Assembly (NCBI GenBank): GCA_029339195.1
Contig: JAPTJF010000048.1
Span: 1-64,000, forward strand
Source: Micractinium sp. NFX-FRZ
Lineage: Eukaryota; Chlorophyta; Trebouxiophyceae; Chlorellales; Chlorellaceae
Direction: 5' to 3'
DNA length: 64,000 nucleotides
The notes beneath the pieces were generated by a model. The model was given only the letters and a program-made list of their open reading frames with translations. It was not told the DNA's origin and searched no databases. Positions 5,836 to 52,736 of the stretch are shown one piece after another (position 1 is the first letter of the stretch; the number at the start of each line of letters is the position of its first letter). The translations under genes were made by a program, and so were the position numbers.

Positions 5836-6965
5836 TCACGCGTGCGTGGCGTTGGCGCGCGGGGCCTTCATCTGCACCACCTTGACGAACCCTTCCGGCA
5901 CCTCCATCCCCGCCTGCTGGCACGCCTGCCGCGCATCCTCCACCGCCGCCATGTCCTGCAGGCAGGGCAGGGCAGGGCAGGGGCAGATGTGTCGCTTTGT
6001 CATGCACTGTGGCCACTGCAAGGCAGGGCAACGCAGGCAGCGTGGGAGTGCGGCAGATGCGACGGCCACATCCTCATACGGTATGTCGTCGGGCAGGCAC
6101 AGCAAGTGAAGCAGGTGGGCAGGTAGGGTTGCTGGACAGGGCACGGCAGCCCGGGGTGCTGGGCACAGGGCAGCCCCTGCAGGGTGCAGGGCACAGGGTA
6201 GCCCAGGGTGCAGGGTAGCCCAGCCCGATAGGATTAGGGTTTAGGGTTTAGGGTGCCCCGCTGCGCCCCTGCCCAGCACCTGCGCCCCAGCCCAGCACCA
6301 GCACTCACCTGCGGGCTCAGGAAGATGAACTGCAGCTCCGGATTGTCCTTGGCGAAGCTGCGGGGCAGTGAGGGGGCAGGAGGGAGGGTGGCACATGAGG
6401 AGGGGGGCAGTCGAGACGCGTCTGGCCAACCTGGAAATCCAGGGAGCGGGGGGGAGGACGGGAGGAGGGGAGGGCTACTGGCACCGAGCGGCTGGCAGCC
6501 TGGGTCGTGCATTGTGCTCGCCCCACCTTCCCACCCGCACCCGCCTCCAGTCATTCACCTGCCAGCCCGGGTCGCGCATTGTGTTCGCCCCACCTTCCCA
6601 CCCGCACCCGCCTCCAGTCATTCCTTCAATCAACCTCCCACCCGTCCCACCCAGCATGCTCTGCCCCGCCACGGCACCACCACGGCAGCACCACCCATGC
6701 ACCGTCCAGGCCACCTTCTCGGCAGCTGCCTCACATCACATCACATGCACCCACCTGAACAGGTTCTGCATTGCCACGCGGCGGTTGATGGCGTCCATGA
6801 ACTGCGAGGTGGGGTGGGGTGGGGTGGTGCGGGAGGCGGGAGGCAAGGGGATGCGTGAGAGAGGGAGGGAGGCAGGGAGGGAGAGACGGAGGCGACATGC
6901 TGGGCAGGGTAGCGAGGTGGGGTGGAGTGCAGTGGCTGCCAGCCAGCAGCAGAAAAAGCAGCAAT

Positions 6966-6996
<31 letters not shown>

Positions 6997-9900
6997 CGTG
7001 CATAAGCAGCAGCCATGCACCAGCGACAGATTTATGCTTTTGACGTTGCCAACGCTAGGCAAATTTGTGGTGCCCCGTGTGGGGGCCTCCTCTCCATGCA
7101 CCAGCCCGGCACTCACCACATCAAACTCATCCTGCAACACCACAAAGCAGGGGAGAGGGAGGGCGTGGGGCTTCTAGTGTGGGAGAGCAACAATGGAGGG
7201 ATGCAGCAGAACTGGTCCCACAAGGCAGGCGGGGTGCGTGGCACGCACGGCAACCAGGCACACTGCAGTTGCAAGCAAGTCCTCACGCTGGCTCTGGCCC
7301 GTGCAAGAACCGCCTCTGAAGCACCCTGCCACCTCCCCCGCCTTCCCCCCCCATTCGCCACCCCTCGCTCGCCCCTGTCCCAACAACCGCTCATAAATGG
7401 CCATCCCGCCCACCCCTCCCCCTCCTCCCGCTCACCATGGCCCGGAACGGCATCTCCGTCTGCCCACCCAGCGCCAGAGTGAAGGCCACAGTGGTGTAGC
7501 TGCGCTCGCCGCCCGACAGCTGCAGGGGGAGAGGTGCGGGGGGTGGTGTGTGTGTGGGGGTAACGTGGCAACACAGCCTGAACCCCGGCTGCCTGCGCTT
7601 TACCGCCAGACAGATGCAGGAGAGAGGCGCAGTGGGTGGGGGGTAACGTGGCACCACATCCCAAGCATGCAAGTGAGGACAGAAGCATGGAGCGAATGCC
7701 GGCCAGGGTGCAGCAGATGCTTTGCTTGCTGCGCGGCCCGCTGCAGGGGAGTGAGCGGTGCCCACGACAGCCTGCACCCTGTGCCACCTAGCTCCCCTCG
7801 GTGCCCACAGACTGTGCTCAATGTGAACCGTCGCCAAACTGTCCCGACACCATGCAACCCTGGACCTCCGAGGCCCACGCATCAATAGTTGCTACCTGGT
7901 TCAAGTCTCAGACCTCAAGCTCTGCCACTGCCGCCGCCACCGCACCCCCAAACCACTGCCTTCACCACCATACACACTCGACCTTGCACACCACCTTGCC
8001 CACCCCTTGGGGTTTGTATCGCACGTTGCATTGGGAATGAAACAGACTGCAAGGCCATACAAGCAACGCTGCCCACCTGCTTGAGATCCCGGACATCGGC
8101 AACGTTGCCGCCGTCGCCGCCGCCGCGCCCGCCGCCTTGCCCCCGGCTGTTCATCTGCACCTGCAGCGTCAGCGAGCGTGCCTTGCGGTCCAGCTTGATG
8201 CAGCCCTGCGGCAGGGAGAGGATCGAGAGAGAGCCAGCAGAGCTGGGTTTATGAGGAGCGGGGTTCAGTGTTGGGAGGCTGGGTAGGCGCAGGGCAGTGG
8301 GGAGGTGGGTAGGGCGACCATGCGGGACGGTTGGCCTTGGGACAAGGGGCACTGCGCAGGCAGGCTACCCACACATTACATGCTCGCAGCCACGCGACAG
8401 CCGGCGCAGCAAGGATGCCCCCCCTCCCCCCCACTCACGCTGTGCCCCTTCTTCCACATGTAGTACCGGAAGCGCTGGTTGACCAGGGCCTCCAGGCTGT
8501 GGTCCAGCTGCAGGTGAGGAGGAAGATAAGGGGGGAAGAATCTTCTTCTGATGTAAAGCGTGAGCACAGGTAGGGCAGGGGAGGCATGTGTGGTCACCAG
8601 GGCCCCCAGGCCATGGCCCAGCTGGAGATGAGAGGTCAGGTGAAGGGTGGTGAGCACAAAGAGAGAAGGCAAGGGGAGGCATCTATTCGCCCGGGCCTCC
8701 GGGTTGTGGCACCCAGCCTACAGAGGTTGCCATTGGGGCGGACAGCACGGCACGCGGAGGGGGCATGCGGCAAGAGATGCCGAGGGGAGGCATCTGCTTG
8801 GCGGGAACCCCTGCGGGTTCCACCAGATGCCAGCATGGCGCCAGCTCAACGCATGCCAGCTCAGCGCATGCCAGCTCAGCGCACCTCCTGCAGCTTCTTG
8901 GTGCGCAGCTTCGCCGCGTGCTCCACCACCTGCAAAGAGGGGGCAAGCACGCAGACTGGAGGTCTACTTGAAACGCCCTCCAGGGTTGCATCACGCATTC
9001 TGCCCTGGCCTCACGCTGGCACTGCAGGCATGTGCTGGGACGCCTGCCAAATTGCACATCGCACGGCTGCCTGCCGTCCCTGCCATCCGAGTCGTTCCCG
9101 CGCTTGCCTCACACCTCACCAGTCTGGATGGCCTCCCTTGTGCTGTCCGGCATCATCCCCCCACCCTCAACCTCTTCCCCACAGCACAGCTAGCTCCTGC
9201 TGTTGGGAGGGGGACCCAACCTCGTACCCACCCCCCAGCCAGCCCCACCACCCACCTCGTATGTCTGGATGGCCTCCTTGAACCGCCGGCCGTCGCGGTT
9301 CATGCACGCCTGGCTGGCAGCGTAGCGCGCCTGCGGGCAGGCAGGCAGCGAGGGGCAGGCATGGGGCGCTCGCACGGTGTGAGCGCACACGGGCTCGGCG
9401 TGCGGTAGCAATGCTGCTTCCTGCTGAAGCCCCCGCCCCCCCCCCACACACCTCTCGCACGTGACTAATTCATGCAACAGGTTTGCGTGTCCACTGGCAG
9501 ATGGCCCAGGCTGCCGCCCACTGCCCGCTCTTCCTGCCTGCTCTTCCTGCCCATCGGCGCCCGCAGCCAGAGGAAACCAGCATGACAGCTGCCCACCTGC
9601 AGCTCATCCAGGCTGCCGCCCGCCGCCCGCTCGTGCTCCGCAATCTTCTTCTCCAGCTGGTGCACCTTCTTGCCCAGCAGCTGCACAGGCGCGGGGGAGG
9701 CAAGGCGCACAAGGGACACGCCACGCACTCCATTCAGGGCCCAAACCACGCCTGAGTGACCACTGACGTCACACCATGCACACACACCCATCCCGTCTGC
9801 GCAACAAGTATGGCTCAGCTCCCGGTCGGTGTATGGGGCGACACAGGGGACTCGACCTTGCCTTCACCACACCACACCACGCATCTTGCGGTCGTCACGC

Positions 9901-12900
9901 CCCACCATCAACCCACCCTCGCACCTCTCGCGTGAGCAGCGCCGCCACCTGCTCGTCCGTCAGCTCCCGCTTGCTGCGCAGCCGCGCCTCCACGGCGCGC
10001 CGAGCCTCCGCCGCCTCCTCGCGAGAGCACAGCTGCGGGCAACTCGGCGGGGGCAAGAGCAGAGGGGTCGGGGTGGAGGGTGGGCAGCGTGCTGGCTGGG
10101 GGATGCTGGTTGCTTCTGCCGCCTCCCCACGCACACGAGCACACCTGCAGTGAGGGGGCAGGACATGGCCGCGGCAGAAGGTGCAAGGGGCAAGAGGGGT
10201 TGAGTAGGGCAGCTGGTTCACTCCAACGGCCGGCACCCGCAGCCGGCTCCACAGCACACATGCGCACAACGCGCCGCACCACACTCCGCTCAAAGTGCCT
10301 GCGCACAGCATGCCAGGCACCCGCATCACAGCTTCCGCAAAACTCCTCAGCACAGGTCCCATCCCCCACCTCTGCCGCCTGCTCCTCCATCACCGCCAGC
10401 TCAGCGCCCTTCTCCGCCGCCAGCCGGGTCCAGCTGGCCTGCTTGGTCGCCAGGTCATCCACCCATTGCTGCATCTCATGCAGCCGCGCCTCCACCTGCT
10501 CACGGGGTGTGCACACTAAGTGAGGAGTGAGAGGCATGTACTTCACATCACGAGGCAGGCCAGCCGCCTGCACAGCCCGCCTGCCACCTCACCTCCGCCT
10601 CCCACTGCTCGGAAACGTGGGCCTGGCTACCCAGCTTGACCAGCTGCTTAGCACAGGCGCTCCCGTGCATAAAACAGCAAGCCTGTGACTAGCCTGCACC
10701 TCCGTTTCCTCAAGTACACACGCCACCCACCTCTGCCCCCTGCCGCGAATCCTGCTCATACGTGGCCATGAACTGCTCGTTCTCCTCCTGCAGCCGGTGC
10801 AGCGCAACCCTGCAAGGCAGCCATCAAACCACACAAGGGGACAGGGCATCGTCAGTGGGAGGCTATGAGGCAGGCCTTCTTGCCACGCCGAAGCTTGCTG
10901 GTAACAGGCGCAGCTGCCCCGAAGTTGGTGTTCACAACCCTCCCCCCCCTCTATGGCCTGCCCCCTCACCTCTTCTCCTCGTGCGCCGCCCCTGCCTGCT
11001 GCTCCGCTGCCTGCGCCTGCTCCAGCGCGTCCTGCCGCTCCCGCAGCTGGTGCTCCAAATCAATGCACGCCTGGGCGGCCTGCACACATTGGCCAGGCAG
11101 GAAGGCAGCGTGGCAGCTGGGCGGTGGGCAGATGGACAGTCAGGGCGGTGGTCCAAATCGGCTAATGCAGATGCACGCCTAGGCGGCCTGCCCATGCGGG
11201 CAAGGGGGCAGCGGAGACAGGAGGTCGAGGGCTGGGGAGGCAAGAAGGCGAGCAGCGGAGAGAGCCACGTGTGCACCGTCCTCCACTTCACCAGCAGGTG
11301 ACCGAACCTGCCAGCCCCTCTTCCTCCCACTACAACCCGCCCCCCTGCTACGAAAGGTTCCCTGTGCTGCCCCGTGGCTTCGCTACACCAGGGGAGCCCT
11401 CGGTGCCCATCCCCCCCAGCTTGCCTGCCAGATCTCGGCCTGCACCGCCTCCCCACCATCCTCCTGGGTGGCCGCCATCACGTCGGGAGGCAGCTGCTGC
11501 GTCAACTGCGTCAGCGAGCTTTTCGCCTCCCACTGCAGAGGGTGGCAGGCGGGGGAGCGGGAGTGCGGCAAGGTGTGCAGCCAGTGGGCAGGCAGGCAGG
11601 CAGGCAGAACCGCAGGCAGCAAAGAGGGCAACACGCACGCAGGCAGGCAGGCACAGGTAGGTCAGCAAGCATGTAGGCAGCCAATCATACAAGCGCCCGC
11701 CACAGGGCACTCACACCTTCATGCCCCTCCAGCGCAAACCAGCAGTGCCTTTGAATCCTGCCCACACCCTGCCCACCGCCCACCCTCTTCAACCCGCCCC
11801 CTGCTCACCTCATATGAATCCTGCCCACACCCTGCCCACCGCCCACCCTCTTCAACCCGCCCCCTGCTCACCTCCTTCTTCTTGGCCCCCTGCAGCGCCT
11901 TGCGCGCCGCCCGCTCCGCCGCGTCGGCCGCCTGCACCGCCTCCCGCGCCCGCTGCAGCTCCTCCTCCTGCCCCGCCAGCTCACCCTGCAGCCGCCGCAC
12001 CTCGCCCTCCAGCTCAGACACCTGGCGGGCGCAAAGAGCGCAAGGAAAGGGAAGGGGTGAGGGGTACAAGAGGCCGGGCAAGGCGGGGCAGCCGCCCGCA
12101 CATCCGCCCTCCCGGTCTGACACCTGGCAGGTGTGAACTCGTAGAAGTGGGTGGGGTGATATGGTCGGCAGGGGGAAGATGAGGAAAGTAACTAGCAACA
12201 CGCAGGGGCGTGCAAGGGGGCAGCGCAGGCCGGGCACATTCGCAGGCGGTCACTCCAGCCGCAACCAGGCATACCTGCTGCGCCGCGCTCTGCCCAAGCC
12301 GCGCGCCGCGCAGCCAGTAGGGCGCCGCCAGGGAGGTCTGAGTGGAGCCGCGGCGGTAGTACCTGCAGTACCACGGGGTCATGTGATCGAAGACATCACA
12401 CAGCAGTTGCACTAAACATGCGTGCACATGGCAGTTGGGTGTGTGTGGAGCAGTGGCAGCAGTGCCTGCTAGAGCAGGGCGGCAAGGAGGAACCACAGCC
12501 CGTGCAGGCCCCTCTCACTTCTGGCCATCTTCCGTGTAGCAGGCAATCACGTTGGCGCTCTGCCAGCCAGCGCGCTCCCCATCCTGCCTGTTCCCCGCCA
12601 CCGCGATTTTCTCTGCGGCAACAAGGCGGCAGCACACAGGAAGGGTCAGCCGGGGTCGGTATCCTCAGCAGGCAGGCCACGGATGTGAGCAGCACCCAAG
12701 TAACAACCCCCTCCACCACCACACATGAGCGAGATGATCGCTGAGAAAGAATGAATGTGCGCTCACTTACCGATGTGTGCCGTGTCCACCAGGTTGTTCA
12801 GTATGGGCGCCGCCAGCTTTTTGTCTGTGCAGCGCAGCAGGCGGTAGATGGTGGGCAGCTCGGGGGGCGGCTGCGAGCCCGGCGGGATGCTGTGCGCGGC

Positions 12901-15900
12901 GTGGTCAAAGTTGACCACAAAGACTTGGGGCCGCATCGGCTGGCCTGCATTTTGATAGGAGACAAGAACAACCAAGGAAATGGGCTCCGCGTGCCAGGGA
13001 GGCAGGGAAGGAGTGGGAGGGCAAGCGGGAGCCAGTGGAGACCGCTCACGCTACCTCTGCCCGCTGCTCGTGCTGCCCAAGCATGCAGGCAGGCAGAGCC
13101 CCGCTGCCCAAGCAGGATACCAGCCCACCCTCAGCCACCTGCAAAGGGCTGCCAGCGCGCCCACCGTTCACAAAATGCTGCCTGCACCCTACCACCTGAA
13201 CCATGCAGATGCAGGCCCAAGGTGGGGTGGGTGAGGCCCTTCCACCACGCACACAGAAGTGCAGCCGACCCACCCACCCACCCACCCACCCACCCGCAAA
13301 GTGCTGGCCAATCATGCGGCGCAGGAGGTGCGAGTCTGCCATGGTGTGCACCAGGAAGGCGTTGAGGTGCAGGCTGATGGCGGCCTCAACCGCCAGGCCC
13401 CACCTGCAGGGGTTGGTAAAGACAGTTTGGAGGACAGAAAGAGGGCGGAGCTGGAGTCAGCAATGGGAGGGGCGTTGAAGTGCAGGCTGATGGCGGCCTC
13501 AAATGCCAGGCCCCACCTGCGGGTGGTGTGCGGGAACAGCATGGGGCGAGGCAAGCGCTGTGCACGGCAGGAGAACCACGTGTTGGCTTGAGCCAACACC
13601 AGGATGCGGGCGGGACATGAAGGCGGGACACGCGGCGCGGGCGGCAGCGGCCGCAGAGCACCTGGTCCTGGGGTTGTGTGTTGGAGGCAGGCCAGCGTCA
13701 GCACCACCAGCACCCTCCCAACCCTCACCCTGAGGTGCTCCACCCCTCTCAGCCCCCTTGCCCCCGCGCTTGCCTGCTGTCCTGCAGCGTCAGGTGCTGC
13801 CCCACCGGCCCGATGGGCGGCCGGCTGAACTGCCCCGCCGCCTTCTTGACGGCCGCCACCAAGCGCACCGCCGCCTGGCCACCAAACGCCGCCAGCTTGC
13901 TGCGCCCGGCCTCCTTGATCTGCCCAATGTCACGCTGCAGATCCTTGATCTGCCGGTCCGTGGCAAAGCACCGCGTGCGCGCGTCCTCCGCCTGCTGGTG
14001 CGCCGCCTTGGTGGCGGCACACGCCGCCTGGTACGCGGAGTCCACGCCCGCCGCCTGCGCAGCGTGGTGCAGCAAGAGCTCCGGTCAGGCAGGGGCAGGG
14101 CAGGGCGGGAAGGGTGCCAAGTGGCTGACAGCACATGGCCGGCAGCTGTACTGCTTGCGGCTGCTGTGGAACATACTGCTGCTGTGCGCTGCAGCATCAC
14201 TGATCCCAGCACACACGCAGCAGTCTCCCAGCATCGGCACCGTGAAGGCGCCCAACCTGTGCGCCCCCCCCACAAATCGCACCTCACGGTGGCACGCCTC
14301 CTCCTCGGCCTGTGCCACCTCCAAGTCCCGCTGGTACGCAGCCACCTGCGCAGAAGCGTCAGGAAGCAGTAGCTTTAGGATCGGCGGACACTTTGGCAGC
14401 CGCAGCAGCAGCTGACGTCCTGTCCTTGTCAGGGCGCGCACAGCCGTCAGTCGCACTGCTGCTGCATGGGGGTCCACACCTGCCCCTGCAGCGCCCCAAC
14501 ACCTGGTGCCCCCGGCCGCGGCTGCCCCGCCCCCGCCCCCGCCCCCGCCCCCGGCTGCCCCAGCAGGGCCCACACCTGCGCCTGGGTGGCTGCCACCATG
14601 TCGTCCTTGGTCTCCCGGGCAGCGCTCTCCAGGTTCTGTGGGGCCAAGGGTGCAAGGGGAGAGGCAACTCGACTAGGGAAGGTGGGCGGGCACCATGCAG
14701 AAGGGATGCCAGCAGGGGGCAGACCTGCCAGGGAGGCGAACAGGCGCACCCAGCGCGTGCCACCGCGCCACGGGCGGGCCCCAGACCCAGCGCGCCTCGC
14801 TACTCAAGACTTGCTCCTTCCCCAGGTGCCGAAATTTTAAAATAATTACTGTTTGAATCCACCACTCCTTCCCCCCCGTGCAGCAATCCTCTATACCCAC
14901 CCACACACGCACACACGCCGCCCTGCGCCGGCGCACCTCCTTCTGCGCCTGCGCCTCTGCCAGCGCCTCCCGCAGCTGCCGGATCTTGGCGTCCGCCGCC
15001 CGCACCCGCTTGTGCGCCTCCTTCTGCCCCGCCCTCAAAGACTCCACCTCGCCCAGCAGCTCGGCGGAGCGCTGGTTGAAGGAGGCAATGAAGTGGGCCT
15101 GCCGCAGTGGGGGAGAAGGCACATGAGAGAGGTCAGGGGCAGGGCAGGGTGGGGGGTGGCATGAGACACACATGGGTGAGGCGAGGCACATGGGCAGGCG
15201 GGCAGTGTGGGCCGGGTGGGCAGGTGGTCCAACACAAGACGAAGGGAGGGCAGGGAGGCTGGCATATTGCAGCCTGCGCGACAGCACCCCTGAGAAGCGG
15301 CCCACCAACTGCGCTTGCGTGCATTTTGCCCTCCTGCCCCCCACCCACAACCGCCCACCCACCTTGCAAGCCAATGCCTTCTCATCACCGCTGCCTCACG
15401 CTGCAGCCACGCACGCGCCTGCTCCCAGCACCTCCCGCTCCCATCAGCCCATCTGCAAGAGCCCCTGCCCCCCACCCTCTGCCCACCTTGCCATCCACCG
15501 CCTCCTTCATCGCCGCCGCCTCCCGCTGCAGCTCCTCCAGGCGAGCTGTCGCCTCCTCCACCTGCTGCGGCAGCTGCCCCTCCAGGGCGTCACGAATGAG
15601 GGCCAGCCCCTGCGCCTGATCCTCCACCACAGCCCACATGAGCACCTGGCAGGGGAGGGAAGAAAAAGCACGCGGGAGGCTGGTTGAGAGCGGGGTGGTG
15701 GGACACACAGAGCATGTGCGCTACCTGCCGTGCGGTGCCTAGCAGCTCAGCGCCAGCGAAACCCGGCTGCGCAGCTGTGCCCCTGGCGGGCGGCCATGGT
15801 TGTGGCACCGCTCCACAAAACAAAAAGCCAGCATCCCCATCTAAACCCTACCTGCTAACTACACTACCAACACAGCTTCTGCCCGGTGCCACCCTGCCGT

Positions 15901-18900
15901 TCCAAGCCAGCTGCTCCACCTCCGTGCACCACCCCTCAATGGCCCTGAGTCCTCCTTTTGCTCCCTCCCCCTTGCCCCCTCTCCCTTCCCTCTCCCCCAC
16001 CCCCTCACCATCTCCAGCTGCTCCACCTCGGTGCGCCACCCCTCAATGCCCTCCAGCGCAGCAATGCTCTTGCGCAGCTCGCCGTGCTCGGCCACCATCT
16101 TCTCATACTCCTCTCGGATCTGGAGGACACGGGTTGTGCAGGAGGGAGTCAGCAAACAAGGGAGAGGTATGAGCAGGGTCATTCAGTCGAGATTCGTCGC
16201 CACCAACGCTTGCATACTCCTCGCGGACATGCAGGTGTGGGTGGGGCGCAGAACTGAGTTCTAAAACCAGACAGGAACGTGCGGCCGGATAGTTGGGGAG
16301 ACTGCTCAGCCACAGTGAGTACACCAGGTGGTGTCTGAGCAGCGCCCGCCACTACCGGGCCATCCCAACCACACTGCAGCCAGTCCCAGCTAACGTGGAG
16401 CGATGCCCTGGCCCCTTACCGACACAACGGCCTCCTCCATCTCTCTGATCTGCGCCTTGGAGGTTTCCAGGCTGTAGGCAATCTGGTCCAGCGAGGTGGC
16501 CTCCATGTACAGCTGGTACTTCTCCTGGTCCGCCTGCAGTACAATGTGATACGGCAGCAGCACAGGGCAGTACAACGCATGAGAGTGCATGAGAGAGGCT
16601 GCAGGCAACCTAAGCGCCGCACGTGGGCTCGTGCTCCGCACTTGCCCTCACATCAGCGCGTGGGTGGTGTTGCTTTCCAGGGCTGACCTGGTTGCTGCTG
16701 CGTGCCGCAACCCTCCAGACACAGAGTAACGCCCCAGCACACCCTCCTTGCACAAAGCGACGCCCCAGCACAGCCCCCCACGTACAGAGAGCACACCCCA
16801 GGGTAGCCCCCCTGCCCACCTTGCTGCTGCTGCCCGCCAGGAAGTTGCGGGCGGTGTCCTGGGTCATCACGGTCACCGGGTTGGCGGCGTTCAGCCCCAG
16901 CGTCTGCAGCATGGCATCCAGGTCCTCGCGCTTGCGCCCGTGCACCCTGCAAGCAGGTGAAGTGAGAAGCGGGCAAGTCAGAAGAATAAAAAGAAGAAGA
17001 AGGCAGATGGGCAGGCAGCGCCTTCAGCATGGCTCCCAGGCCTTGGCACTTGTTTACAGCCATGCACGCATGGTGCAGGCAGGGAGGGTGACAAGCAGGC
17101 AATGCGGAAGCAGTCAGGCAGTCAGGCGAGGAGGCGGGCAGGCACCATTTCACCCCCACCCCACCCACCCCATACTGCCGCTGCTGTCCTTCAGAGTGAT
17201 TGCATGAAAACATTGCGCATGTGTGTGCCAGCAGCCCATCAGTACACCGAACCAAACTGGCCCGCCCCAGCCACCCCTAGCACCCACCTGCCGCTGGCGT
17301 CCTTGAGCGCGTACGAAGAGGCGGTGCCTGTGTGTGCGATGCGCCGCTCCACGGTGATGGTGTCCCCAAAGGTGGCGTGCCGGAAGGCGTCGTAGCCGCG
17401 GAAGGGCCGGTTCCACACGGTCACACGGATGATCGCCTCGTCAGCGCCCGTGCGGATGAGCTGCACGGGATCCGGACGACAGAGGCAACGTGGCCCAACA
17501 TAATCAAGTACATGAGGGGCGGCGGTAAAAACGGCGCCTTGCAGGCATTTGGAGCGCCGATGAGGCTGCCGCCACCCGGCATCCCAGCAGCCCCTGCGCG
17601 CTCCCAAGCCGCTGCCCCTCTCTGCACCGCCCGCCCACCTTTTTGAAGCTGTTGGCGCGCCCCGTGTTGGAGGCCTTCACCCCCAGGCAGCACTGCAGCG
17701 CCTGCAGCACCGCCGACTTGCCGCTGCCGTTGGTGCCGCTCACAAAGGTGACGTGCTGCAGAGGAACGAGAACATTGTGGGGAGGGGGAGCGGGGGAGGT
17801 AGTGTGTTGCACCTTGCTGCTGCCAATGGTGGTGCACAAAAAGTGACCACAGGGATGAAGTAAGTTGAAGAGAGCACAGGCCCCAGGAACCCAAGCAACC
17901 AGGCCACAGGCCCCCGCCAGCATACAGCTTGAGCAGCCCAGCACAAACCCAAGCAACCAGGCCAGAAATGGCATCAGCATCAGCATCAGGATCAGCAGAC
18001 CCATATGGCACAAGCGAACGCATATGGCACAAGCGCAGCAGCCAGGCATATGGCACAAGCGAAGCAGCAGGCCCGAGAAGCAGAACAAAGGGGGCGTTTT
18101 CTCTCACCTCTGCAAACTGCATCTTGAAGTTTTCGTGGCACATGAAGTTGGTGACCTGCAGGAATCACGGCGAGCGCAAGCTTGTTTGATTAAAAGAAGC
18201 TGTGTCAGGCAGACAAGCAGCTCCTGAGGCCTGCATGGGGAAGGGCAAGCGAGCAGAGTAGGCAGCACATGCGACAAAGCAGGCAGGCAGGCAGGCAGGC
18301 AGGCACAGCACGCGCATGTCGCTGATGACCTGGCTGGAGTGGGAGATGAGCAGGCATGGGGTGCAAGCCTGGGTGGGCAGGCAGCTGGGTGCTGCACCGC
18401 ATGATGTGCCGCAGGCTGCCACATCATCCCACTGCCGGGCCGTGTGCCCTGGGCCAGGCACTTACGCTCCCCCCGCCCTTCCAGCCCACCCACCTCAATT
18501 TCCTTCAGGTGCCCGGACAGCCCCATGATGCGCATGCCGCCCTCGCCCACTGGATAAGGCACCTGTGTTGGCGTGAGGCAGGGCAGAAGGGGCGGGGCAG
18601 GGTGGGGGGCGTGTTGAAGGGCAGCACGCCGCAAGTTTGCAAGGAATCCCTGGGGTCGCAAGCATTGCCAGCAGCAGCAGCAGCAGGGGGGCATTAGTCG
18701 GGTCTGACTGCAGAGTCGTGCGTCGTGCTGTGCTCCTCGTCACATCCTCATCATGAAGCCTCATGCCCACCCCCACTCCCGGCCCAGCACCCACCTGGCT
18801 CTCCGAGGCCAGCTGCGCCATTAGGGCGGCGCCTCCCGGAGCCTGCTGCCCCGGCTGGCGCAGCCCAAAGCGCGACCGGATGGCGGTCTCTTGCCCCGCC

Positions 18901-36000: not shown

Positions 36001-39000
36001 TCTCTGTGCTTGATTGCTTGCTTGCTAGAGGGATCTCAGAGGGGGAGGGAGCCCGGCCCGAGATGTACCTGCGGTGCGTACAACCAGCAGATGTGTGTTG
36101 CTTTGCCAAGAGATGTGGTGTCCGTGTTTGTGCTTGCTGGCTTTTTAGAGGATAGGAGGGGCGGCGGGCATCAGACCCGAGATGTACCTGCGGTGTGCAC
36201 AAAAGGAGGCTGTGTGTGATGTGTTAAGTGTCCTCTTGTGCTTGTTGTTTGGAGGATGGCAGAGGCGAAGGGCATGAGGCCTAAGGTGTACCATCGGTGG
36301 GCACACTGGTGCCCGCCCCCTGTCAGTGTTGTTTGCCTGTGTTCAGCGGATCACAGGCAGATGAGGGCATGTGGCCCGAGGTGGGGGGTTGGGGGTGCTT
36401 GCAGGTGAATCTCTGCCGGCCACGGCGCCACACACCTTGGCAGCCACTGCGCATTCCGCTAGTGTATGTGCGTTTCCCCTTGCCTGGCACGTCCACCTGT
36501 GTTTAGTCAAGGCACTCGGAAGTGGCCTTGCATGCACCTCTGCCCCTACCAACCCCGTTCCACCTCAGCTGTCCACCTTCTTGCGCAGGCCCGCATTTGC
36601 CCAGTACGGCACGTGAAGGCGCTCCGCATGCACTCTGTCCGTGCACTCTTGCACATTCATAACATTGCGCCTCCCTCTGTTTGCAGGTCTATATTTGCCG
36701 ACTACGGGCATGTGAAGCAGGTGCTCATGTACCAGGATTGCAAGGCGGCGCTTGTCTCCTACTCAACCACCGCTCAAGCCTTCAAGGTGGGCCTGGGGGG
36801 CAAGGGTGCTGGCGCTTGCCTGGGGGCCGGTGACTGGCAGGCACACAAGGTGGGCTGGGTTGTCCATAGGGCCGGCTGCTCCTATGCAGCAGGAGGGGTT
36901 GGTATTCATGCCAGTGCTCGCGCAGCAGGAGGGGTTGGTATTCATGCCAGTGCTCGTGCAACTCCCCACACCTCTCCACAGGCCTACATGCTGCTCAACA
37001 ACAAGGTCCTCCTCGGCTCCAAGCTCACCGTGCTCATGCTCAAGCGCCTGCCCAAGGACACAGGCAAGCGACTGCACAGCGCAGCATGCACAGCATGTCA
37101 GGGGCATGGCATGCACACGTGGCGGGGGTGGGCGGGGGTGGCGGGTGGGTGTACCCGGGAGGCGGGTGCAGGGTTGAAGGGACACGCAATGGCCAGCAGA
37201 TGCGGGTCGAGCTGCTCTGTCTGGCGGACAGCGGCGGCACCAGATAGGGGCTTTGGAGGTTTACCAACCGTTGTAAGCAGTCCACCGTCCCTTGCCCCTT
37301 GTACTCGTGCAGAGGTGGACGGCGTGGTGCAGCAGCTGCTGGCCGAGGCGGAGCGGCGGGAGGCGGAGGGAGACGAGTGGGCATATGACTTCAACGAGGA
37401 CCACAGCGTGCCCAGCATGCCGCCCAACGTGCCCAGCAGCACCGGGATGCGCGCCCCGCTGTACACTTCCGGGGCTGCCAGCAGCAGCAGCGGCAGCAGC
37501 CTGCGTGCCCCCGCCAGCCAGAGCATCAGCATCCCGGGTGCTCCCGCCACGGGGCCTTCGGTAGCTGGGCCCCGCAGCAGCTTTGTCGACAGCCTGGGTG
37601 ACACGTGGCCCGCAGCTGGCACCAGCGCAGGCGGCGCCAGCAACGGGTCATTTGGCTCCACTCCCGGCGGCCCTGGCGGCCTGCGGGTGGGGGCAGCTGA
37701 GTTCAGGCCAGGAGGCGCTCCCGGGACGGCGGCGGCGGGCGCGGCGGCAGGCGCTGCTCTGGCAGCAGCAACGGGGGGCGGACAGGCTGCGCAGGCTGGG
37801 GAGGAGCTCACCTCTAGGTACCTCTCTGCCCAGCTCATCCAAGCGGACGAATCGGTAAGCTAGACACCATGGCTGGCTTTACTTCAGTGTTGATTGTAGT
37901 CCGCCGCAACTGCTGCCACAGGCACCGTGGCCTGCCCCTGTATCCCCTGCCTTGCTCGAAAAGGGGTGTGCTTGCTTGGCAGAACCTGGCCGGCGGGCCC
38001 CGCTGGCGGGGCTGCATCGATGCGCTGGCATAGATATGCACTGTCCTGGCCGCCGGTGACTGCGTACTTGTGTCATATGTTTTTTCTCATTCGTTGTGCC
38101 TCCCCTGCAGACCTACCAGGCGTTCCTGGATAGGGGGCAGGAGCAGTTCGGGCTGCCACCTGCTTGCCTGGACCGGCCGGGACTGGTGGTCGGACGTGAG
38201 TGCTGCCGCCCGCTGATGCTGCCCCGCCTTGATGGGTTCCGCAACCTCTGCCTCAACTCACACAACTCAAAACACACAGCTCAGCTTGCCCAGCTGCTCA
38301 CCGCTGCTCAGTCGAACAGCAAATCCAGTGTGTCAGCTGTGTGTGCTCTCTCCATGGGGGCCAGCTCCGACCAACGCCACCGAGTTGGCTCAAAGCCGCC
38401 CCGCCCCACCCTCCCCTGCAGCCAACATGGCCCTGCTGATGTACAATGCCCAGCTGAAGTGCCTGTACGGCGTGTGGAGCGCCCATTCCAAGGTGCGTGG
38501 GGCGTGCCAAGGTTGGCCGGGGGATGCCGTGCGGCTCTGCCGGCTGCCTGGGACCGTGCCTGTATGGCGTGTGGAGCGCCAGCCTCAAGGGGGTGGATGG
38601 CTGGTGGACGTGAAGTGCCTGCTGCGAGCCTGTACTGCCTCTGGTGCCCTGTAGTGCTTGTGGCGCCCGTGGTGCTGCAGCAAGGTGGCCGTGCAGCCCA
38701 GGCAGGCAGGGGTGCCGGTTTTCTTCCCTTTTCATCGGTGGGCTTGTCGGCTCCCTGCCCACATCCCCAGCCTGCAGCAGACAATCCAGCTCCTGGGTGG
38801 AGGGGTTGCTGTGCTCCTTGCCATCCTGCCCATCATCATCCGCTTGCACGCGCGCACCAAACCCTGCCATTCCGTGCCCCGGTGCAGCAATTCGTGCCGG
38901 ACCAGGGAGAGGTGATTGTGTTCCAGCAGCAGCGCATCATGCCGCCGCTGCCGCTGGAGCACGTGTCGGGCCTGCTGCAACAGGAGCCCAACCCCATGGG

Positions 39001-42693: not shown

Positions 42694-45600
42694 TCAGCCC
42701 AGCTGGGCCTGGTTGAGCATGGCGGCGTAGCGCGCGCGCCCCAGGGCGGCCATAGACAGCAGGTGCTGCAGGGGACCCTCCAGCCCTGAGACGTTGGTCA
42801 GCGCCACGGCTGCAGGCGGGCGGGGTGCGGGGGTGGGAAAGGGCGGAGGGGGGGAGGTCTGAGAGCGGCTGGCATGGGCGGCAAAGGCGCGTGCACACCT
42901 GCGGTACCGGGCACAGGGTGCTCCCTGCACCCACAACCCACCGCGCACTACTGCCCAGCGGCTGGGCCACACCAGGCACACACAGCTGCCCAATCACCCC
43001 CTCACCCGCCCACCCGCCCCACCACTCAGCCGATCACACTTCCCCCCACCCAGCCCGCTCAGCAGACCATCACCCACTGCGCCGCCCACTGCGCCCAGGC
43101 AATGTGCCCCCCGGTCTCCCCTCACCCGACATGCGCTTGTTGGCACCAAAGATGGAGCCCAGACCGATGCGGGTGAGGGCAAAGACCACGGGCACGCCGC
43201 ACAGAGATGCTAGCTGGCAGATCTCCGCAATCTCGGCGCCCGGCTGCAGGCAGGGAGCGGGTGGGCAAGGGCAGCAGGTGGGTGGGCGGGTGGCAAGCCG
43301 GTGCCAGCTGGCGGGCATGCCAGGAGGCTTCGCGGGAGAGTGGCAAGTTGCGCGGTCGGCTCGACGCAGGGCCAAGGGCGGCCAGCACAGCAGGAACGCA
43401 GCAGCGGACAGCTGGCGCTGCCGCAGCCTGCCAGTGCGGCGGGTGCTGCCGGCCCACAGCCACTGCCACGCCCCAACCACTCGTTATCAACACAGGCGGG
43501 CGGGCACCTGCGCGGCGCAGCGTGCGGTGCCGCAGGGGTTGGTCTCTTGAATGTCCACGGCTGCCACCAGGGCCGCCGCTGTGCCCGTCTTGACGGCCTT
43601 GCGCACCTGCGGGGGTGGAGTGGGGTGATGAGGGGAAGAAAAGAGAGTAGGAGGCAGGGTGGAGCGGGTGGTGAAGGGGGAAGCAGTGAGTAGGGTGGAG
43701 AGCAGGGTGCAGCCTGCTGAGGGGTGCTGGGGTGGCATGCCGGGCGGGGGCAGGGGCAGCGGATGATGGGCGGGGATTTGAAGGCCCCACGCCAGGCACA
43801 GGCAGCTGGCAGCAGCGAACGTCTCAAGGCAGGAGGTGGTGGGCAGGGGGCAGCGCATGCGGGTGACACTCAAGGCTGGGCTAGCTAGCCAGCACAGCCC
43901 TCGTCGCCAGTAGGTGAGCAGGCAGGGTGCCCCGCCGCCTCCCCTTGCCCTCGTCGGCCCCTGCCTGGCATGCTGCCCCCTCCCCCGCCCTCCCAGCCCC
44001 TCCTCGTGACACTCACCTCTCGCAGCCCGCCCACCAGGCGGCGAGGCAGCTTGCCCGCCCCCCGTGGCACGTGCACCCCCACGGCGCGCTCCACTCCGTC
44101 CAACTGGCGCAGCTGCTTGAGCAGGGAGTGGGCCACCAAGTCGAGCTGGGGGTCGATGACCTGAGGAGGGGGACAGGGTGGGGAGGGGGAGGGGGCAGGG
44201 AGAAGTTTGAAGAGTGTGGAGGAGATGGGAGCGGTTGGTTAGAGAGTGTGAGGGCGACAGTGAGGGCGCAGCAGCTTGAGCAGCGGAGAGTGGGCGACCA
44301 GGCCTTATTGTGGGGCCTTGTGCTATTGAGTATGGCTATTGAGTAAGAAGGGGAGGGACGGGGGCCAGGTGTGAGGGCCAGCTGCACGTCAGGACGATTG
44401 GCACAGAGGATCCCAACACGCGGGCGCACGCAATGTGTAGGCCAGAGCTGGCTCCCCGTGGACTTGAAATGTAGTTGATTGAAATGTAATTGATTGCGGC
44501 GCCCCCAGCCGACCGCCCCCAGGGCCTCACCTGGTTACAGCAGGAGGTGAGGCAGAAGGGCGCGGCAGGCAGGCCCATGGGCAGCGCCGGGCGCGCGCTG
44601 GGCTGCACAAAGGCGGCAGTGGGCGGCTGCAGCACGGGCGGCTGCAGCGGTGGCAGCGGGCCTGCCTGTGCGCTGAGCACTGCCAGCAGGGCAGAGGGGT
44701 CACAAGTGAGATCAGCAGTGGCGGACCGCGCAGGCGGCGGGCCAGCGGTGGAGGGCCGGGCAGGCATGTGCAGCTGGCGGTGGTGGTGGTGGTGGTGGTG
44801 TGTGGTGGGCAGGGCTGAGCTGGCGGTGGGCAGCCCTGCTGGCAGGCCAACCGCTGGCCCGACACCTGCGGGGCGCGGGGGAGAGCAGGCGGCACAATAG
44901 GAGGTTGGGTGAGCGTGTGGGGCAAGGGTTAGGCTGCTGGCAGGGCGGGGGGGAACCCGCCCTGCCTCTGCACGCCACAACCAGCGCATGCCGCTGCATT
45001 CCTAAAAACCACCGACACCTCCTTGGGCGGGGCCCTGTTCCTTCCCCTGCCCCCAGCTGGCACCCCGCCAGCACCCCCAACGGATCCGCCCACCTGCCAC
45101 CTGCGCCGCCAATCCAGGCACATTCATGGCTAGGCTGCTGTTCACCACGGCCACGGCATGCTCCAGGGAGGCGCAGTGCACCTGGAAAGCCGCCGCGTCC
45201 GAAAAGGCGGCGCTGCAGCTGGGGCAGGCATAGGCGGGGGGCGGGATGGCACCGGGACCGGGCCCCAGCAGCGCTGCCGCCGCCTGCTCATGCTCCTGCT
45301 GCTGCTGCCGCGCGGCCAGCGACGCCGCCAGGGCTGCCAGCAGCACGTCGGGGCGGGGGCCGCCGGCGGCGGCGCCTGACGGCAGGCTGCGCTCGGGGCT
45401 GCTGGTTGGGTTGCCGGGCAGCAGGGCGGCGCCGTGGCCGCCTGGCGCTGCCGCGGCCGACAGGTGGGGCGGGGCGGCCTCCAGTGCATCCAAATGCGAG
45501 GAGGAGTCGCGCAGCAGGCGCACCGCGCTGTGGCTGTCGCGGCTGCGGCTGGGCATGGGGGCGGTCATGCGCCGTGTCGGCAGCTGCGCCTCCAGGTGCA

Positions 45601-46070: not shown

Positions 46071-47119
46071 CGCGCGATCCTGTAGCATCAACGGGCGGCG
46101 TGGGAGGGGTGTTCGGCACTTGACGTTCCGCGGCCAGTCACCTTCCTGCCGGTATTGCGGCCATGAACATACCGGGAGCCGTCGATAGAGTTCCGATTTG
46201 TGTTCAGGCCGGGTCAAAGCGCCCAGAAGGCGAACGAGCAGTTATTGGGGCCTGTGATTGTGTGCAGGACACCAGCAGCTGCTGCTCAAGAGCCCCAAAG
46301 CCCTGAGAAATTGAAAGGCGCGCGGATTGAGTTAATGGCAGGCATTCAGTGCGGACCGAAGACCACCGGCCGTCACGCGCGTCATTGCGGTCCACCGTGT
46401 CACTCACAGCACGACTCACAGGCTCCTCATTTCCCAGTCTGTCGGTTGTTGGACGAAGAATTGTCTTATGCAAGTGAGGCACTTGATGCAGTGGCGGATG
46501 GGCCGATGCAGCCAGCGGTCACGGCTGCAGGGCCCCCTGGCAAGTGGCCGCCGGCTGACCAGTCTCCACCCGCCCGCCTGGTCAAGGCCACACCGTTGGA
46601 GGAGTTGCATGCAGCGATTGACCAACCGTGCCTGACATTGGCTTGACCCTTGTTCATATCACAACAACTACGATCTAAGCAATGCTGCCGCTGGTGGTGG
46701 TCAAGTGCTCCGGCCCTGGACCGCTCGGACCGACTGCCTGAGCAGCGGGAGCCGCAGTGTTTCAGTCACCACACCGCCTGCACACAGCTTCTTCACGCAA
46801 CAAATCAGTGCGCCACGGCATCTGCGTGAAGTGTCTCGACGGTCCGCTGTGGGCACGGCCCAGCAGTGAATGCTGCTGCCGCCATACGGCCGTCATCGGG
46901 ACCGCCAATCTGGCGCCAGCGGTGCAGAGGGTTTCCGCCTGTCCCACCACTTAACGCAGCCACCATTGAGGCCAAAGCAGCCGTCTGTGGACCACCTTGT
47001 GCGGCGCTATCAAATTGAGCCGCAGGCTCGGTACAAGAGAGCTCGTTCTTCGCTCCCTCCTCTGGCCAGTGAGAGTTTGACAACAGTTAGCCTGGTGGAT
47101 CTCACAAACTTCTGCTACC
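46071..47119. promoter_or_regulatory. Divergent intergenic region between SBP2 and the hydrolase
   Basis: These 1,049 bases separate two genes that start back to back, so they contain both promoters. A 148-codon plus-strand frame (46200-46646) has no splice structure and no family resemblance. GC content is visibly lower than in the flanking exons, which fits promoter sequence. Confidence 0.45.
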
Positions 47120-50100
47120 ATGGCCTGTGTGGCCGCAAGCTCACTGGTGTCGCCGCATTGCGCCTCACGGTGCCAAGGGGTGGGCAGCGCTCGGCGCTTC
47201 GTACCCGCGGCCCTCACGTCGGCACCCAGCAGCAGAACCAACACTGACGCCAGGAGCAGGCATGGAGCCAGCGGCCGTGCCACCGTCGCCGCCGCCAGCG
47301 GCAGGAGCAGCAGCGCCGCTGCCACTGCCTCGGCTGCCCCGCTGGAAGGCGAGCGGGAAGTGCGGCCAGGCGTGTGGGAGGGCTATTGGATCTGGGAGGG
47401 GCACCGGATTCGGTACCAGCGTGCTGGCAGTGGTGACCCAGAGGCACCGGCGGTGCTGTGCGTGCACGGGTGAGCTGGGATGGGGTGGGAGGGCAGGAAG
47501 TGTGGGTGCACCCGCCTGCCAAGCTGCCAAGCCTGGCAGCATGTATGCCTGCTGCAGTGTGTGCCGCTGCTGCCAACTCTTATGGTGCTGCTCCTCCTCC
47601 CGCCTCTTCCGCGCGCGGCGGCATTCCTGCCTGCCCGCCTGCCCACTGCCCTGCGCTTCCTCTGCCCCCACCTGCCGGGCCGGGCCCCTGCCCACTGGCC
47701 TCCCCCAACCTTGACCATCCGGCCTGCCCGCCGACTCCTGTGCAGCTTTGGCGCCTCATCCTGCCACTGGCGCAAGAACCTGCCGGTGCTGGGGGAGAGC
47801 TGCCGGGCATATGCGATAGACTTGCTGGGCTATGGCTATTCCGACAAGGTGAGAACACCAGGTCGGGACTAACCTGGGAGGACAATCCCAACCCCAATGC
47901 ACAACCCAAATGTGTGATGCATTGGTGGGGGCGATCAATGGGGTGCTGGATCAGTGAGGTGGTTGGGGCGATCAGTGGGTTACTGGACAGTGGCGTGGTG
48001 GGGGCGATTGGTGGGCTGCTGACCAAAGGGTTACTGCCGAAGTGGTCCGTCCGGGCCAACCAGTAGGTTGCTCCTGGGTGGACGAACAGGGCCTCTGAGA
48101 CACCTGCCCACCTGGACGCCACACGTCTCCGGCTGCCGTGCCCCGGCCCTCCCATTCCTCCTCCATCTCGCGCAGCAGCCCGCCAGCATTTCACCATTTG
48201 CACCCTGCCTCGCACACACACACACTCTCCGCTCACCATCCCTGTCCACCCATGCCCCATTCCACACTTCTCCCCTTCCCCCTTTCGCTCCCCCTTGTGC
48301 TGGTTGCAGCCCGACCCGCGGCAGCAGCCCACCTGCTCCATCTACAACTTCCCCAATTGGTCCCGCCAGCTGCGCGACTTTATCGCCCAAGTGATTGGCG
48401 GGCCCGTCACCCTCACGTGCAACTCTGTGGGCGGCATCGCGGGGCTGCAGGTGAGAGGGGCATGAGGTTGTTGTGAGGGTCCACAGTCGAGGTCGGCGGT
48501 GGCTGGCGGAGCAGGAGGCGCCGCAGGCGGCGCCCTGAACAGCCGCACTAGCCCGCCCCGGCTGCCGCCCCCCGCAGCCTGCTCCAGGCTGCTTTCTTCC
48601 TCGGGCAGCCGAGGGCGCTTGCAATCGCCAGCGTCTCCCCTGCGCACGTTGCACGCGAGCCCAGCGGGCCCGCGTATCGGCACACCCTCAGCCTGCCGCT
48701 GCCTGCCCTGCCCTACCCGCTGCAGGCTGCCATCGACGACCCCTCCCTGATCAAGGGTGTCCAAATCATCAACATCAGCCTGCGCATGCTCCACGTCAGC
48801 AAGCAGGCCCGTTGGCAGCGCCCGCTGGTAAAGGCGCTCCAGGATTCTCTGCGCACCACGGCGCTGGGCCCCCTGTTCTTTAGGCAGATTGCCAACAAGC
48901 AGGTGGGGAGGTTAGCTTTGGTTAGTGATTGGAGGGGCTGGCTTGACGGCGGAACGGCGAAGCGGCAGCAAGCGGGTGCGCGGCCTGGGGCGGCGGCGCC
49001 TCCGCGACCCGGCCGCCCACGTTTGCCCCCCGCCCCCCTTTCCTTGCTTGCCAACCCTGCTCCCTCCCGCCCCGCCCCAATCCACAGGGCGTGAGGAGCG
49101 TGCTGCAGCAGTGCCCCGGCGACCCGGCTGCCCACATCTGCCACCCGCCCCCCTTTCCTTGCTTGCCACCCCTGCTCTCTTCCGCCTCTCTGCAGGGCGT
49201 GAAGGGCGTGCCCCAACAGTGCCACGGCGACCTGTCTGTTTGCAAACCCTGCTCCCTCCCGCCCCGCCCCCATGCGCAGGGCGTGAAGAGCGTGCTGCAG
49301 CAGTGCTACGGCGACCCGGCTGCGGTCACAGATGAGCTGGTTGACGTCATCCTGACGCCTGGGCTGCAGCCGGGGGCGGTGGATGTCTTCCTCGACTTTA
49401 TTAGCTACTCGTCCGGGCCCCTGCCGGAGGAGCAGCTGCAGGTGGGAGGGGCTGTGTGGTGGGAGGGGCAGGACGGGGGCAGAGGGGGTGGGGACTGGGG
49501 GCGGACGGTGGTGGGCGGTGGTGGGCGGAGGACGCTCTTCTGCAGGCGGTGGGCCTCTGCCGGGGGAGCAGCTGCGGGCTCTGCCTCGGAGTGGAGGGGT
49601 GGGGTGAGATGCATGGCGTGCGACTGGGAAGAAGGCCAACAGAGTATGCACCAGGCGCATGCCACCTCTCACTGCACCTTCCGTCCTACCACCTCTGCAC
49701 CCTGTGTGCCTCCTGCTCCCCAGCCCGTCGCCATGCCTGTGAACGTGGGTGTGTGTGGGCCGCCCCCTTGGCCCCCTCCACCTTTCCCCCTCACCGCGTC
49801 CCCCGCTTTGCCCGCTCTGCCCTGCAGGCGGTGACCGTGCCAGTGAGCGTGGTGTGGGGGGAGGAAGACCCCTGGGAGAAGATTGAGTGGGGGCGGGAGT
49901 TTGCCAAGTATCCGTCTGTGCAGGTGGGCGGGAGGGGAGGCCTGCGGGCCGTAGGGGGAGGCCTGTGGGTCATGAGGGGTTCAGACCTGAGTGGGTGGCA
50001 GGTGCAACGCGCTGATGGAGGAGCCATATGTCCAGGTGTGGGGCGGCCAGGTTAGTCATGTACGGGCATGGACGGCTCTGGTAGCTGGCAGGCACGTTTG

Positions 50101-51085
50101 TTATGGAGGACACGTGGGGCATGTCTGGGTGGGGGGCGCGAGTTTGTGTTGGGGTTGGCAGGCTGCCAAGCACCCCCAAGCCCAGGTTCAGGTGGGGGCC
50201 GGCTTTGTGGTCGGGGCGCGGCCTGCCGGTGTGCTGGATGGCACAGTGCACTGCACAGGGTTGCTGCGGGCTGGCTGGCAGGACGGTATCCAAGGTTGCG
50301 GGCTGGGTGCTGGCAGGACGGTATCCAAGGTTGCGGGCTGGGTGCTGGCAGGACGGTATCCAAGGTTGCAGCAGGTGGGGTGCCGCAGGGTGAGAGGGTC
50401 AAGGGCTTGGTGTGCAGCATGCCTGCCTGCCTGTTGCACGGCTGGCCGGATGTGCGACCGCCTGCCCCCTCGCCTCCCTTGCCTTCTGCCTGCCCGCCTG
50501 CCTGGCCGACCGCCCTGTTACCTCACCTCCCTTGCCCGCCCGCCTGCCTGGCTCCACTCTTTCTGTGCAGGAGTTTGTTTCTCTTCCGGGTGTGGGGCAC
50601 TGCCCACAGGTGCGCTTGCGTCCTGCCCTGGCTGCCCTGCCCTGGCTGTGCCCTGCCCTGTCGCCTGTTCTGGCTTGCTGGCTGGGCAGCCGTGGACACG
50701 GGCCGCTGGCTGGCTGCTGCACTGCTGGCTGCTGCACTGCTGGCTGGCTGCTGCACCGCTGGCTGCTGCACCGCTGGCTGGCTGCTGCACCGCTGGCTGC
50801 TGCACCGCTGGCTGCCTGCTGCACCGCCTGCGGTGCATTGCGCGTGCTTGTTTGCTGCCGCATGTTGGACACGCGGTTCGTCAAGCCGCTGCCCCTCCCT
50901 CTGCCCGCTTCCCGGGCCCCAGCAGTGCGTTCCGTCCCCCTACGGCCCCGGCGCCTGCTCCCCACACGCTTTCAAGCAGTGACTCACCCGTCCCTCGCCT
51001 GTGTGTAAGCCCCGCCTGGCTGCAGGATGAGGCCCCCCACCTGGTCAACCCACTGATCCTGGACTTTGTGAAGCGCCTCAATTGA
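47120..51085 (+). CDS. Chloroplast alpha/beta hydrolase of the pheophytinase-related group
   Basis: Eight exons (47120-47469, 47746-47848, 48310-48450, 48726-48902, 49280-49441, 49828-49923, 50571-50609, 51026-51085) join in phase to 375 residues. The first 80 residues are a Ser/Ala/Arg-rich transit peptide. The hydrolase core starts at GYWIWEGHRIRYQRAG. It has the oxyanion motif HGFGAS, the strand AIDLLGYGYSD, the nucleophile elbow TCNSVGG, the acid loop WGEEDPWE and the histidine loop PGVGHCPQDEAP, so the Ser-Asp-His triad is complete. Plastid proteins of this group include chlorophyll-ester hydrolases and acyltransferase-like enzymes; the substrate cannot be told from sequence. The residue two before the Ser is Cys rather than the usual Gly. 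Introns on both sides of exon 5 carry copies of its edges. Confidence 0.86.
49060..49310 (+). repeat. Triplicated acceptor region of hydrolase exon 5
   Basis: The start of exon 5 with its CAG acceptor occurs three times: at 49088, 49196 and 49280. Only the last copy stays open and joins in frame to the rest of the exon. The pyrimidine tract between copies is repeated too, so the unit is about 85-108 bp. Confidence 0.88.
50276..50370 (+). repeat. 35-bp triple repeat in a hydrolase intron
   Basis: Three direct copies with unit starts at 50281, 50316 and 50351 (each beginning GGACGGTATCCAAGGTTGC) lie in the intron before exon 7. The unit does not resemble an exon. Confidence 0.88.
50695..50835 (+). 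repeat. CTGGCTGCTGCAC minisatellite in the last hydrolase intron
   Basis: About nine alternating units of CTGGCTG and CTGCACCG/CTGCACTG spread over 130 bases. The array is purely intronic. Confidence 0.8.
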
Positions 51086-52331: not shown

Positions 52332-52560
52332 CTAGCCAGGAAAGTGCGCCAGCTTGCCATACTGAAAGGCTGCTGCTGCGGCGGCAGCGGCGGCAGCAGA
52401 GCTTGTTGTGGAGGACTGAGGCAGTTCTGGTGACCGCTCCGGCTTGGGAAGTGGCGGCGGCAGCAGGCTGCCATCGGCAGAGGACGCACTGGGCCCCGGC
52501 CGCGGTGCGCTGGCATGCAGCTGTTGCAAGAGCAGCTGCAAATGCTGGTCCTGCACACGT

Positions 52561-52603
<43 letters not shown>

Positions 52604-52736
52604 AGTGCTGCTGCTGCTGCTGCTGTAGCTGCTGCTGGTAGTGCTGCTGCTGCTGCTGCTGTAGCTGCAGCTGCTGCACCGCTGCTGCTGCCCTCTGCTG
52701 TTGCAGGTGCTGCGTCGCCGCCGCTGCTGCCCTGTG

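Follow-up and report, generated by a model that had tools for sequence, protein, structure and literature searches.

In the potato RdRp gene, a tandem duplication across an intron-exon boundary created a new intron that uses a cryptic donor, the duplicated segment comprising the 3' part of an intron and the start of the next exon with a putative branch site, tract, AG, and exonic enhancers (PMC4974935, excerpted text). In Drosophila, a few introns at novel positions have been ascribed to exonic duplications, their splice sites being supplied by tandem duplication (PMC2891723, excerpted text), and fill-in of DNA breaks with 3' overhangs is described as yielding small tandem duplications (PMC8355091, excerpted text). 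Here we examined a 64-kb stretch of contig JAPTJF010000048.1 (positions 1 to 64,000, hereafter the window) and further parts of the genome of the green alga Micractinium sp. NFX-FRZ, in which introns contain copies of the edge of an adjoining exon together with its splice site. These splice-edge copies are real and genome-wide, and approximately one intron in six carries one. They resemble the potato duplication in what was duplicated; however, the excerpt on potato concerns a single gene in which an intron was born, whereas the copies in the alga have a regular unit of ~108 bp, occur on both sides of introns, and lengthen them. In the Drosophila cases, by contrast, exonic proto-splice sites were duplicated, and the corresponding register signature is absent in the alga. 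In the excerpt on break fill-in, we found nothing linking that process with splice junctions or with a ~108-bp unit.

Among the open-access publications listed by our searches (titles and the beginnings of abstracts, a body that leaves out most subscription papers), we found no report of genome-wide, size-regular, and junction-focused duplications of splice edges. Intron lengthening and the gain of spare splice sites have usually been inferred from single cases, and this alga offers a large natural series of seemingly one kind of event caught at various ages, in which both the unit size and the position relative to the splice site are regular. Two questions thereby become directly testable, namely whether DNA duplication can focus on splice junctions and how the spliceosome ignores a near-identical site ~100 nt away.

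Frequency and location of splice-edge copies

The sample comprised 344 kb, i.e., the window and 28 other 10-kb stretches (L002-L029) of the 66-Mb assembly of 838 contigs. Genes were predicted using a generalized hidden Markov model (GHMM) gene finder self-trained on these 344 kb, which settled on GTGNG-like donor and TGCAG-like acceptor signals and placed gene ends where an earlier reading of the window (the original prediction) had placed them (5836 and 51085). It produced 505 predicted introns with an exon on either side; removal of introns shorter than 90 bp or with a flanking exon shorter than 30 or 40 bp left 423 or 410 for counting, and low-complexity segments were also dropped.

Each 40-bp exon edge was compared with its own intron by Smith-Waterman alignment, with a score of at least 26 or at least 30. 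At the lower cut-off, 44/410 donor edges matched their own intron (19/4100 for swapped introns of like length), as did 42/410 acceptor edges (7/4100 for swapped introns), and the controls gave 2/207 and 6/209 for exon interiors and 0/322 and 2/328 for the far end of the same exon. At the higher cut-off, copies were detected for 29/410 donor edges, 31/410 acceptor edges, and 58/410 introns on either side, including 18 of 73 introns in the window and 7 of 32 in SMC6; altogether 60/820 exon edges were copied in their own intron versus 2/4100 in dinucleotide-shuffled own introns, which bears out the exon-edge copies that the original prediction had reported by eye. A looser blastn self-comparison (score of at least 32) revealed a copy in 73/423 introns, of which 33 have it on the donor side, 44 on the acceptor side, and 4 on both. 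By this comparison the window is enriched (22/74 introns versus 51/349 elsewhere, p = 0.0035); copy-bearing introns are clustered by gene (permutation p = 0.0035), and at least one case is present in 17 of the 28 other sampled loci, in agreement with the earlier suggestion of a process reaching beyond the window. Sub-threshold copies are in excess at offsets of 90-135 bp (donor) and 75-105 bp (acceptor) but not at 45-75 bp, suggesting that the true share of introns is probably above 17%.

The copies located in the window are listed below, with the offset between copy and exon edge and the percent identity (id) of the two.

8596..8632, minus strand: copy of acceptor-side edge 8482-8518; SMC6 intron 8508-8884, offset 114 bp, 84% id
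9488..9530, minus strand: copy of donor-side edge 9590-9632; SMC6 intron 9331-9596, offset 102 bp, 79% id, also seen by eye
9122..9136, minus strand: short copy of donor-side exon 9263-9277; SMC6 intron 8930-9255, offset 141 bp, 15/15 identical, score 30; a longer resemblance is visible by eye
11171..11194, minus strand: copy of acceptor-side edge 11063-11086; SMC6 intron 11080-11424, offset 108 bp, 92% id
11752..11874, minus strand: recent perfect 63-bp tandem duplication beginning at the donor of SMC6 intron 11533-11871; it has 3 exon bases only and a unit shorter than the main class
12105..12131, minus strand: copy of acceptor-side edge 12003-12029; SMC6 intron 12022-12253, offset 102 bp, 85% id
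13471..13523, minus strand: copy of acceptor-side edge 13358-13410; SMC6 intron 13404-13767, offset 113 bp, 92% id over 53 bp; adjoining intron sequence not alignable
15382..15407, minus strand: copy of donor-side exon 15507-15532; SMC6 intron 15099-15486, offset 125 bp, 88% id
15907..15944, minus strand: copy of donor-side edge 16014-16051; SMC6 intron 15646-16008, offset 107 bp, 92% id
17016..17052, minus strand: copy of acceptor-side exon 16898-16934; SMC6 intron 16947-17287, offset 118 bp, 78% id
30134..30192, plus strand: copy of donor-side edge 30004-30062; intron 30052-30549, offset 130 bp, 86% id; third copy 30280-30314, offset 258 bp, 77% id
31486..31519, plus strand: copy of donor-side edge 31386-31419; intron 31415-31967, offset 100 bp, 97% id; further copy 31581-31616, offset 185 bp, 92% id
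32403..32442, plus strand: copy of acceptor-side edge 32524-32563; intron 32036-32533, offset 121 bp, 90% id; the intron also has a weak donor-side copy at 32100-32117
33792..33838, plus strand: copy of acceptor-side edge 33903-33949; intron 33523-33914, offset 111 bp, 79% id
35234..35259, plus strand: copy of donor-side exon 35134-35159; intron 35179-35533, offset 100 bp, 88% id
35665..35696, plus strand: copy of acceptor-side edge 35868-35899; intron 35619-35873, offset 203 bp, 84% id
36034..36078, plus strand: copy of donor-side edge 35928-35972; intron 35968-36686, offset 106 bp, 84% id; second copy 36166-36195, offset 225 bp, 93% id
38556..38580, plus strand: copy of donor-side exon 38459-38483; intron 38493-38887, offset 97 bp, 96% id
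44265..44283, minus strand: copy of acceptor-side exon 44106-44124; L7Ae/SBP2-like intron 44161-44530, offset 159 bp, 95% id across 19 bp; the match ends before the junction
49045..49131, plus strand: copy of acceptor-side edge 49237-49323; hydrolase intron 48903-49279, offset 192 bp, 91% id; second copy 49192-49238, offset 84 bp, 85% id
49551..49578, plus strand: copy of donor-side edge 49415-49442; hydrolase intron 49442-49827, offset 136 bp, 89% id
63839..63866, plus strand: copy of acceptor-side exon 63939-63966; intron 63532-63932 of a gene cut by the window end, offset 100 bp, 89% id

Among the genes previously named as carriers, SMC6, the gene at 27-41 kb, and the alpha/beta hydrolase gene do contain copies, on both strands and on both donor and acceptor sides as described, and the SBP2-like gene has the single case above. 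The claim was not borne out for the VMO-I-like gene, where ungapped scanning of the sequence at 19.9-25.6 kb (offsets 15-259, score of at least 28) returned a single tandem pair with a 44-bp period. The earlier count of about fourteen was conservative given the 22 introns detected by blastn, and the size given for the copied edges (25-50 bp) fits.

The duplicated unit and its possible origins

In 62 of 71 intron sides, the match comes within 12 bp of the splice junction or passes it; the other nine, whose match ends more than 12 bp short, are excluded from figures on exon reach. The offset in these 62 cases has a median of 107.5 bp (interquartile range 96-118), which is tighter than the spacing of 50-170 bp given before. 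It changes little with copy length (slope 0.15 for the 58 fitted pairs out of 60) and is less variable than the spacer between copies (standard deviation 14 versus 17 bp), and introns with three copies show offsets of about two units. The exon part of the unit is mostly 13-54 bp and the remainder has a median of 71.5 bp, the intron part being mostly 50-115 bp; the unit is centred 17 bp inside the intron, with a standard deviation of 13 bp about the splice junction versus 20 bp about the exon centre. For analyses of length, position, splice score, and interior versus junction counts, only offsets of 60-150 bp were used. Introns with a copy have a median length of 382 bp versus 254 bp for those without, and subtraction of one unit brings them to 259.5 bp (p = 0.65 against 254 bp), implying that copy-bearing introns are ordinary introns plus one unit. 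The alignment usually ends about 5-8 bp into the intron, just beyond the splice site, and 25 of the 70 best pairs align on through the intron part, with mismatches of 14.7% in the exon versus 21.9% in the intron and gaps of 1.6% versus 3.1%. The anatomy of the copies, the added unit length, and the more decayed intron half lead us to read them as tandem duplications across the splice junction, the origin that had been proposed for them in general terms. We consider it probable that blocks of ~108 bp spanning the junction are duplicated, that the inner copy then decays, and that these events are focused at junctions.

Introners, which also change introns recurrently and genome-wide, suggest another source, in which an introner-like mobile element of ~70 bp inserts and duplicates a target of 20-55 bp at exon edges. 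Spacers of mostly 60-90 bp would fit such an element, and so would one intron (5780-6054 of L013) bearing a young interior duplication in which 49-bp direct repeats (98% identical) flank an unrelated 68-bp spacer, an arrangement that differs from a plain head-to-tail repeat. Yet 99 spacers from 72 introns gave 12 reciprocal-pair hits between introns at E <= 1e-3, the best over 16-26 bp, and 6 of the 99 had a match in other parts of the 344 kb (E <= 1e-4), for the most part spanning 23-49 bp, so that, in contrast to introners, the units contain no full-length repeated element in the 344 kb examined of 66 Mb. The constant quantity is also the offset rather than the spacer, and 25/70 pairs align into the intron part. 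An inserted element is thus highly improbable. Intron birth from tandem duplication of an exonic AGGT segment, the route raised in the original prediction, likewise involves tandem duplication, but donor and acceptor surroundings matched in register in none of 478 introns (score of at least 22, null 0.6) and the copies lie inside introns whose length, less the unit, is normal, which makes this route scarcely credible here.

Judged by their scores, candidate spare splice sites do exist in the sequence, as had been anticipated: 15/22 donor and 19/30 acceptor copies keep a splice-like score (higher than the 10th percentile for real sites), and the copy outscores the real site in 5 donor and 12 acceptor cases. 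The unit also resembles a complete splice module, and selection might retain such a module within the intron as a splicing enhancer or as a back-up or regulated alternative site. However, GT/AG is kept in 42/51 copies, not significantly above the neutral expectation (p = 0.16), donor positions +3 to +5 of the copies decay no more slowly than exon bases, and offsets have no frame bias (23/22/17 modulo 3), which renders selective retention of a spare module decidedly unlikely. Copy mismatches by codon position are 13.5/14.0/17.1%, and together with the flat offset distribution this indicates that the copies do not look coding; for a mutually exclusive or coding exon copy, a concentration of mismatches at third codon positions was expected and was not found.

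A separate observation concerns base composition: from the first to the last decile of the 423 introns, the G fraction drops smoothly from 0.45 to 0.21 as that of C climbs from 0.22 to 0.45, while exons are flat. This gradient could allow pairing between the two halves of an intron or give the spliceosome a cue to intron polarity.

Focus on splice junctions

Ordinary tandem duplications might also arise everywhere without any junction targeting, exonic ones being purged and splice-spanning ones being more visible owing to the conservation of one copy. The decay pattern of the 25 fully alignable pairs is compatible with this possibility, interior pairs fade faster in simulation, and the lower bound of the intron part fits the need for a branch point. 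When uniform duplication followed by ageing was simulated, the expected ratio of interior cases to junction cases with 13-54 and with 55-95 exon bp was 34 : 18 : 21, whereas at the same score cut an independent interior pair was observed in 7-8 introns, and the exon part was no longer than 54 bp on 58 intron sides and longer on 2, neither of which has a match that touches the junction. Simulated interior duplications were detected in 119/119, 112/116, 92/120, and 36/119 cases at 5, 10, 15, and 20% divergence, i.e., they remain detectable to ~15%, and yet the 423 introns include just 7-8 with an independent interior pair of 78-140 bp, or 9-10 if the cut is relaxed; exon parts longer than 55 bp should be the easiest to detect and account for only 2/60. 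A whole-locus scan for pairs of 78-140 bp found 63 that cross exon and intron, 26 intron-intron, 25 exon-exon, and 4 in unannotated sequence, a control that includes at least one gene, as the GHMM missed the VMO-I-like gene. All 25 exon-exon pairs lie inside one predicted exon, and none is a long exon copy disguised as a separate exon. Over half of 40 interior pairs of 60-140 bp are in introns that also bear a splice-edge copy, and in our own scan short-offset repeats (<60 bp) were common inside introns and rare at splice edges. Uniform duplication with survivorship thus predicts far more interior and long-exon cases than were seen and appears unlikely, and the result implies that splice junctions are where duplication or retention is concentrated. 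What sets the junction apart is thus either the rate at which ~108-bp duplications arise or their persistence.

Under the favoured reading of junction-spanning tandem duplication, a block of ~108 bp (about 13-54 bp of exon and mostly 50-115 bp of adjoining intron) would be duplicated in tandem, usually once and sometimes more, and the copy would land inside an intron that becomes one unit longer. The outermost splice site, presumably the one that is spliced, would preserve the exon and make the event tolerable, while the inner copy and its spare splice site would decay roughly neutrally and the true exon edge would be held by selection. CTNAC branch-point-like motifs are most frequent 30-50 nt upstream of the AG and 90% of acceptor units contain at least 54 intron bp; since nearly all reach past this peak, each acceptor copy would carry its own branch-point region. 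In an acceptor copy without this region the first AG might capture splicing, and selection may remove such units. As for the upper limit near 54 exon bases, it may be set by the minimum exon size needed for definition by the spliceosome. Neither the lower limit of the intron part nor the upper limit of the exon part accounts for the raised frequency at junctions, which junction-focused mutation or preferential retention would have to raise at least 10-fold over intron interiors. As there is no clear indication that the copies are maintained, we lean, with low confidence, toward a mutational focus at splice junctions. Introns of this alga seem to grow at their ends. A tentative and rather doubtful extension is that a process coupled to splicing or to junction chromatin repeatedly duplicates ~108-bp splice modules, that introns grow inward from both ends, and that the G-to-C gradient is the trace of decayed donor and acceptor modules.

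Several observations weigh against junction-spanning duplication as outlined here. In 45 of the 70 best pairs the intron part is unalignable though the exon part is ~85% identical, only 16/53 intron parts (30%) exceed 95% of the null, and simulated decay at 12-16% divergence gives an expected median intron reach of 18-25 bp versus the observed 5-6 bp. The loss of the intron half may be due to well-preserved exon copies having been picked by chance, to rapid turnover of low-complexity sequence in introns, or to exon-to-copy conversion. The excess of mismatches at third codon positions is small (p = 0.015) and would require slow synonymous change. Exon reach is 60 bp or more in 8/99 gapped-blastn pairs, four of which come from two introns and have a match short of the junction, and the gene models are computational and derived from sequence alone.

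Several candidate causes of a junction focus were rejected. GGG in the first 50 bp, considered as a fragile site, is raised in donor-side cases (5.3 versus 3.5, p = 0.008) and lowered in acceptor-side cases (3.5 versus 4.5, p = 0.09), and G-runs are thus no common cause. Exon-centred nucleosome anchoring fits less well, as the unit centre follows the junction better and exon reach is not significantly related to exon length (p = 0.23). No transcription-polarity bias was apparent from relative intron position (0.55 versus 0.50, p = 0.66). Genome searches for paralogous loci by which copies could be dated gave short matches only.

Gene content and other repeats

The gene content of the window (GC 62-72% in 2-kb blocks) matches that described earlier, with SMC6 and an alpha/beta hydrolase (Abhydrolase_6, 2.5e-11), and domain matches below cut-off were obtained for L7Ae (in the SBP2-like gene, against the curated cut-off), RRM, and VOMI. 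The best protein relatives of SMC6 are from Micractinium tetrahymenae (64%), Micractinium sp. CCAP 211/92 (63%), Chlorella sorokiniana (56%), and C. vulgaris (53%); in its 33-exon model, 26 of 32 junctions fall in clean alignment with four Chlorellaceae relatives and 6 are off or mis-modelled. A GC-type donor (GCAAGC) lies at 11424, after SMC6 exon 11425-11532, and 23 of the 505 predicted introns start with GC. Three SBP-domain-like genes, the domain being recognised by eye, form a minus-strand row at 52332-61996, with few introns and long glutamine/alanine tracts. In the hydrolase gene, the long last intron contains a tandem array with a 34-bp unit (50703-50827) and a perfect 35-bp x 2.7 repeat (50274-50369). 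Outside the window, L020 contains at ~7058-7327 a dispersed repeat with at least 49 partial matches elsewhere in the genome (68-89% identity), and a ~118-bp stretch of a gene region in L019 (~8222-8339) has 94-95% copies on contigs C64 and C47.

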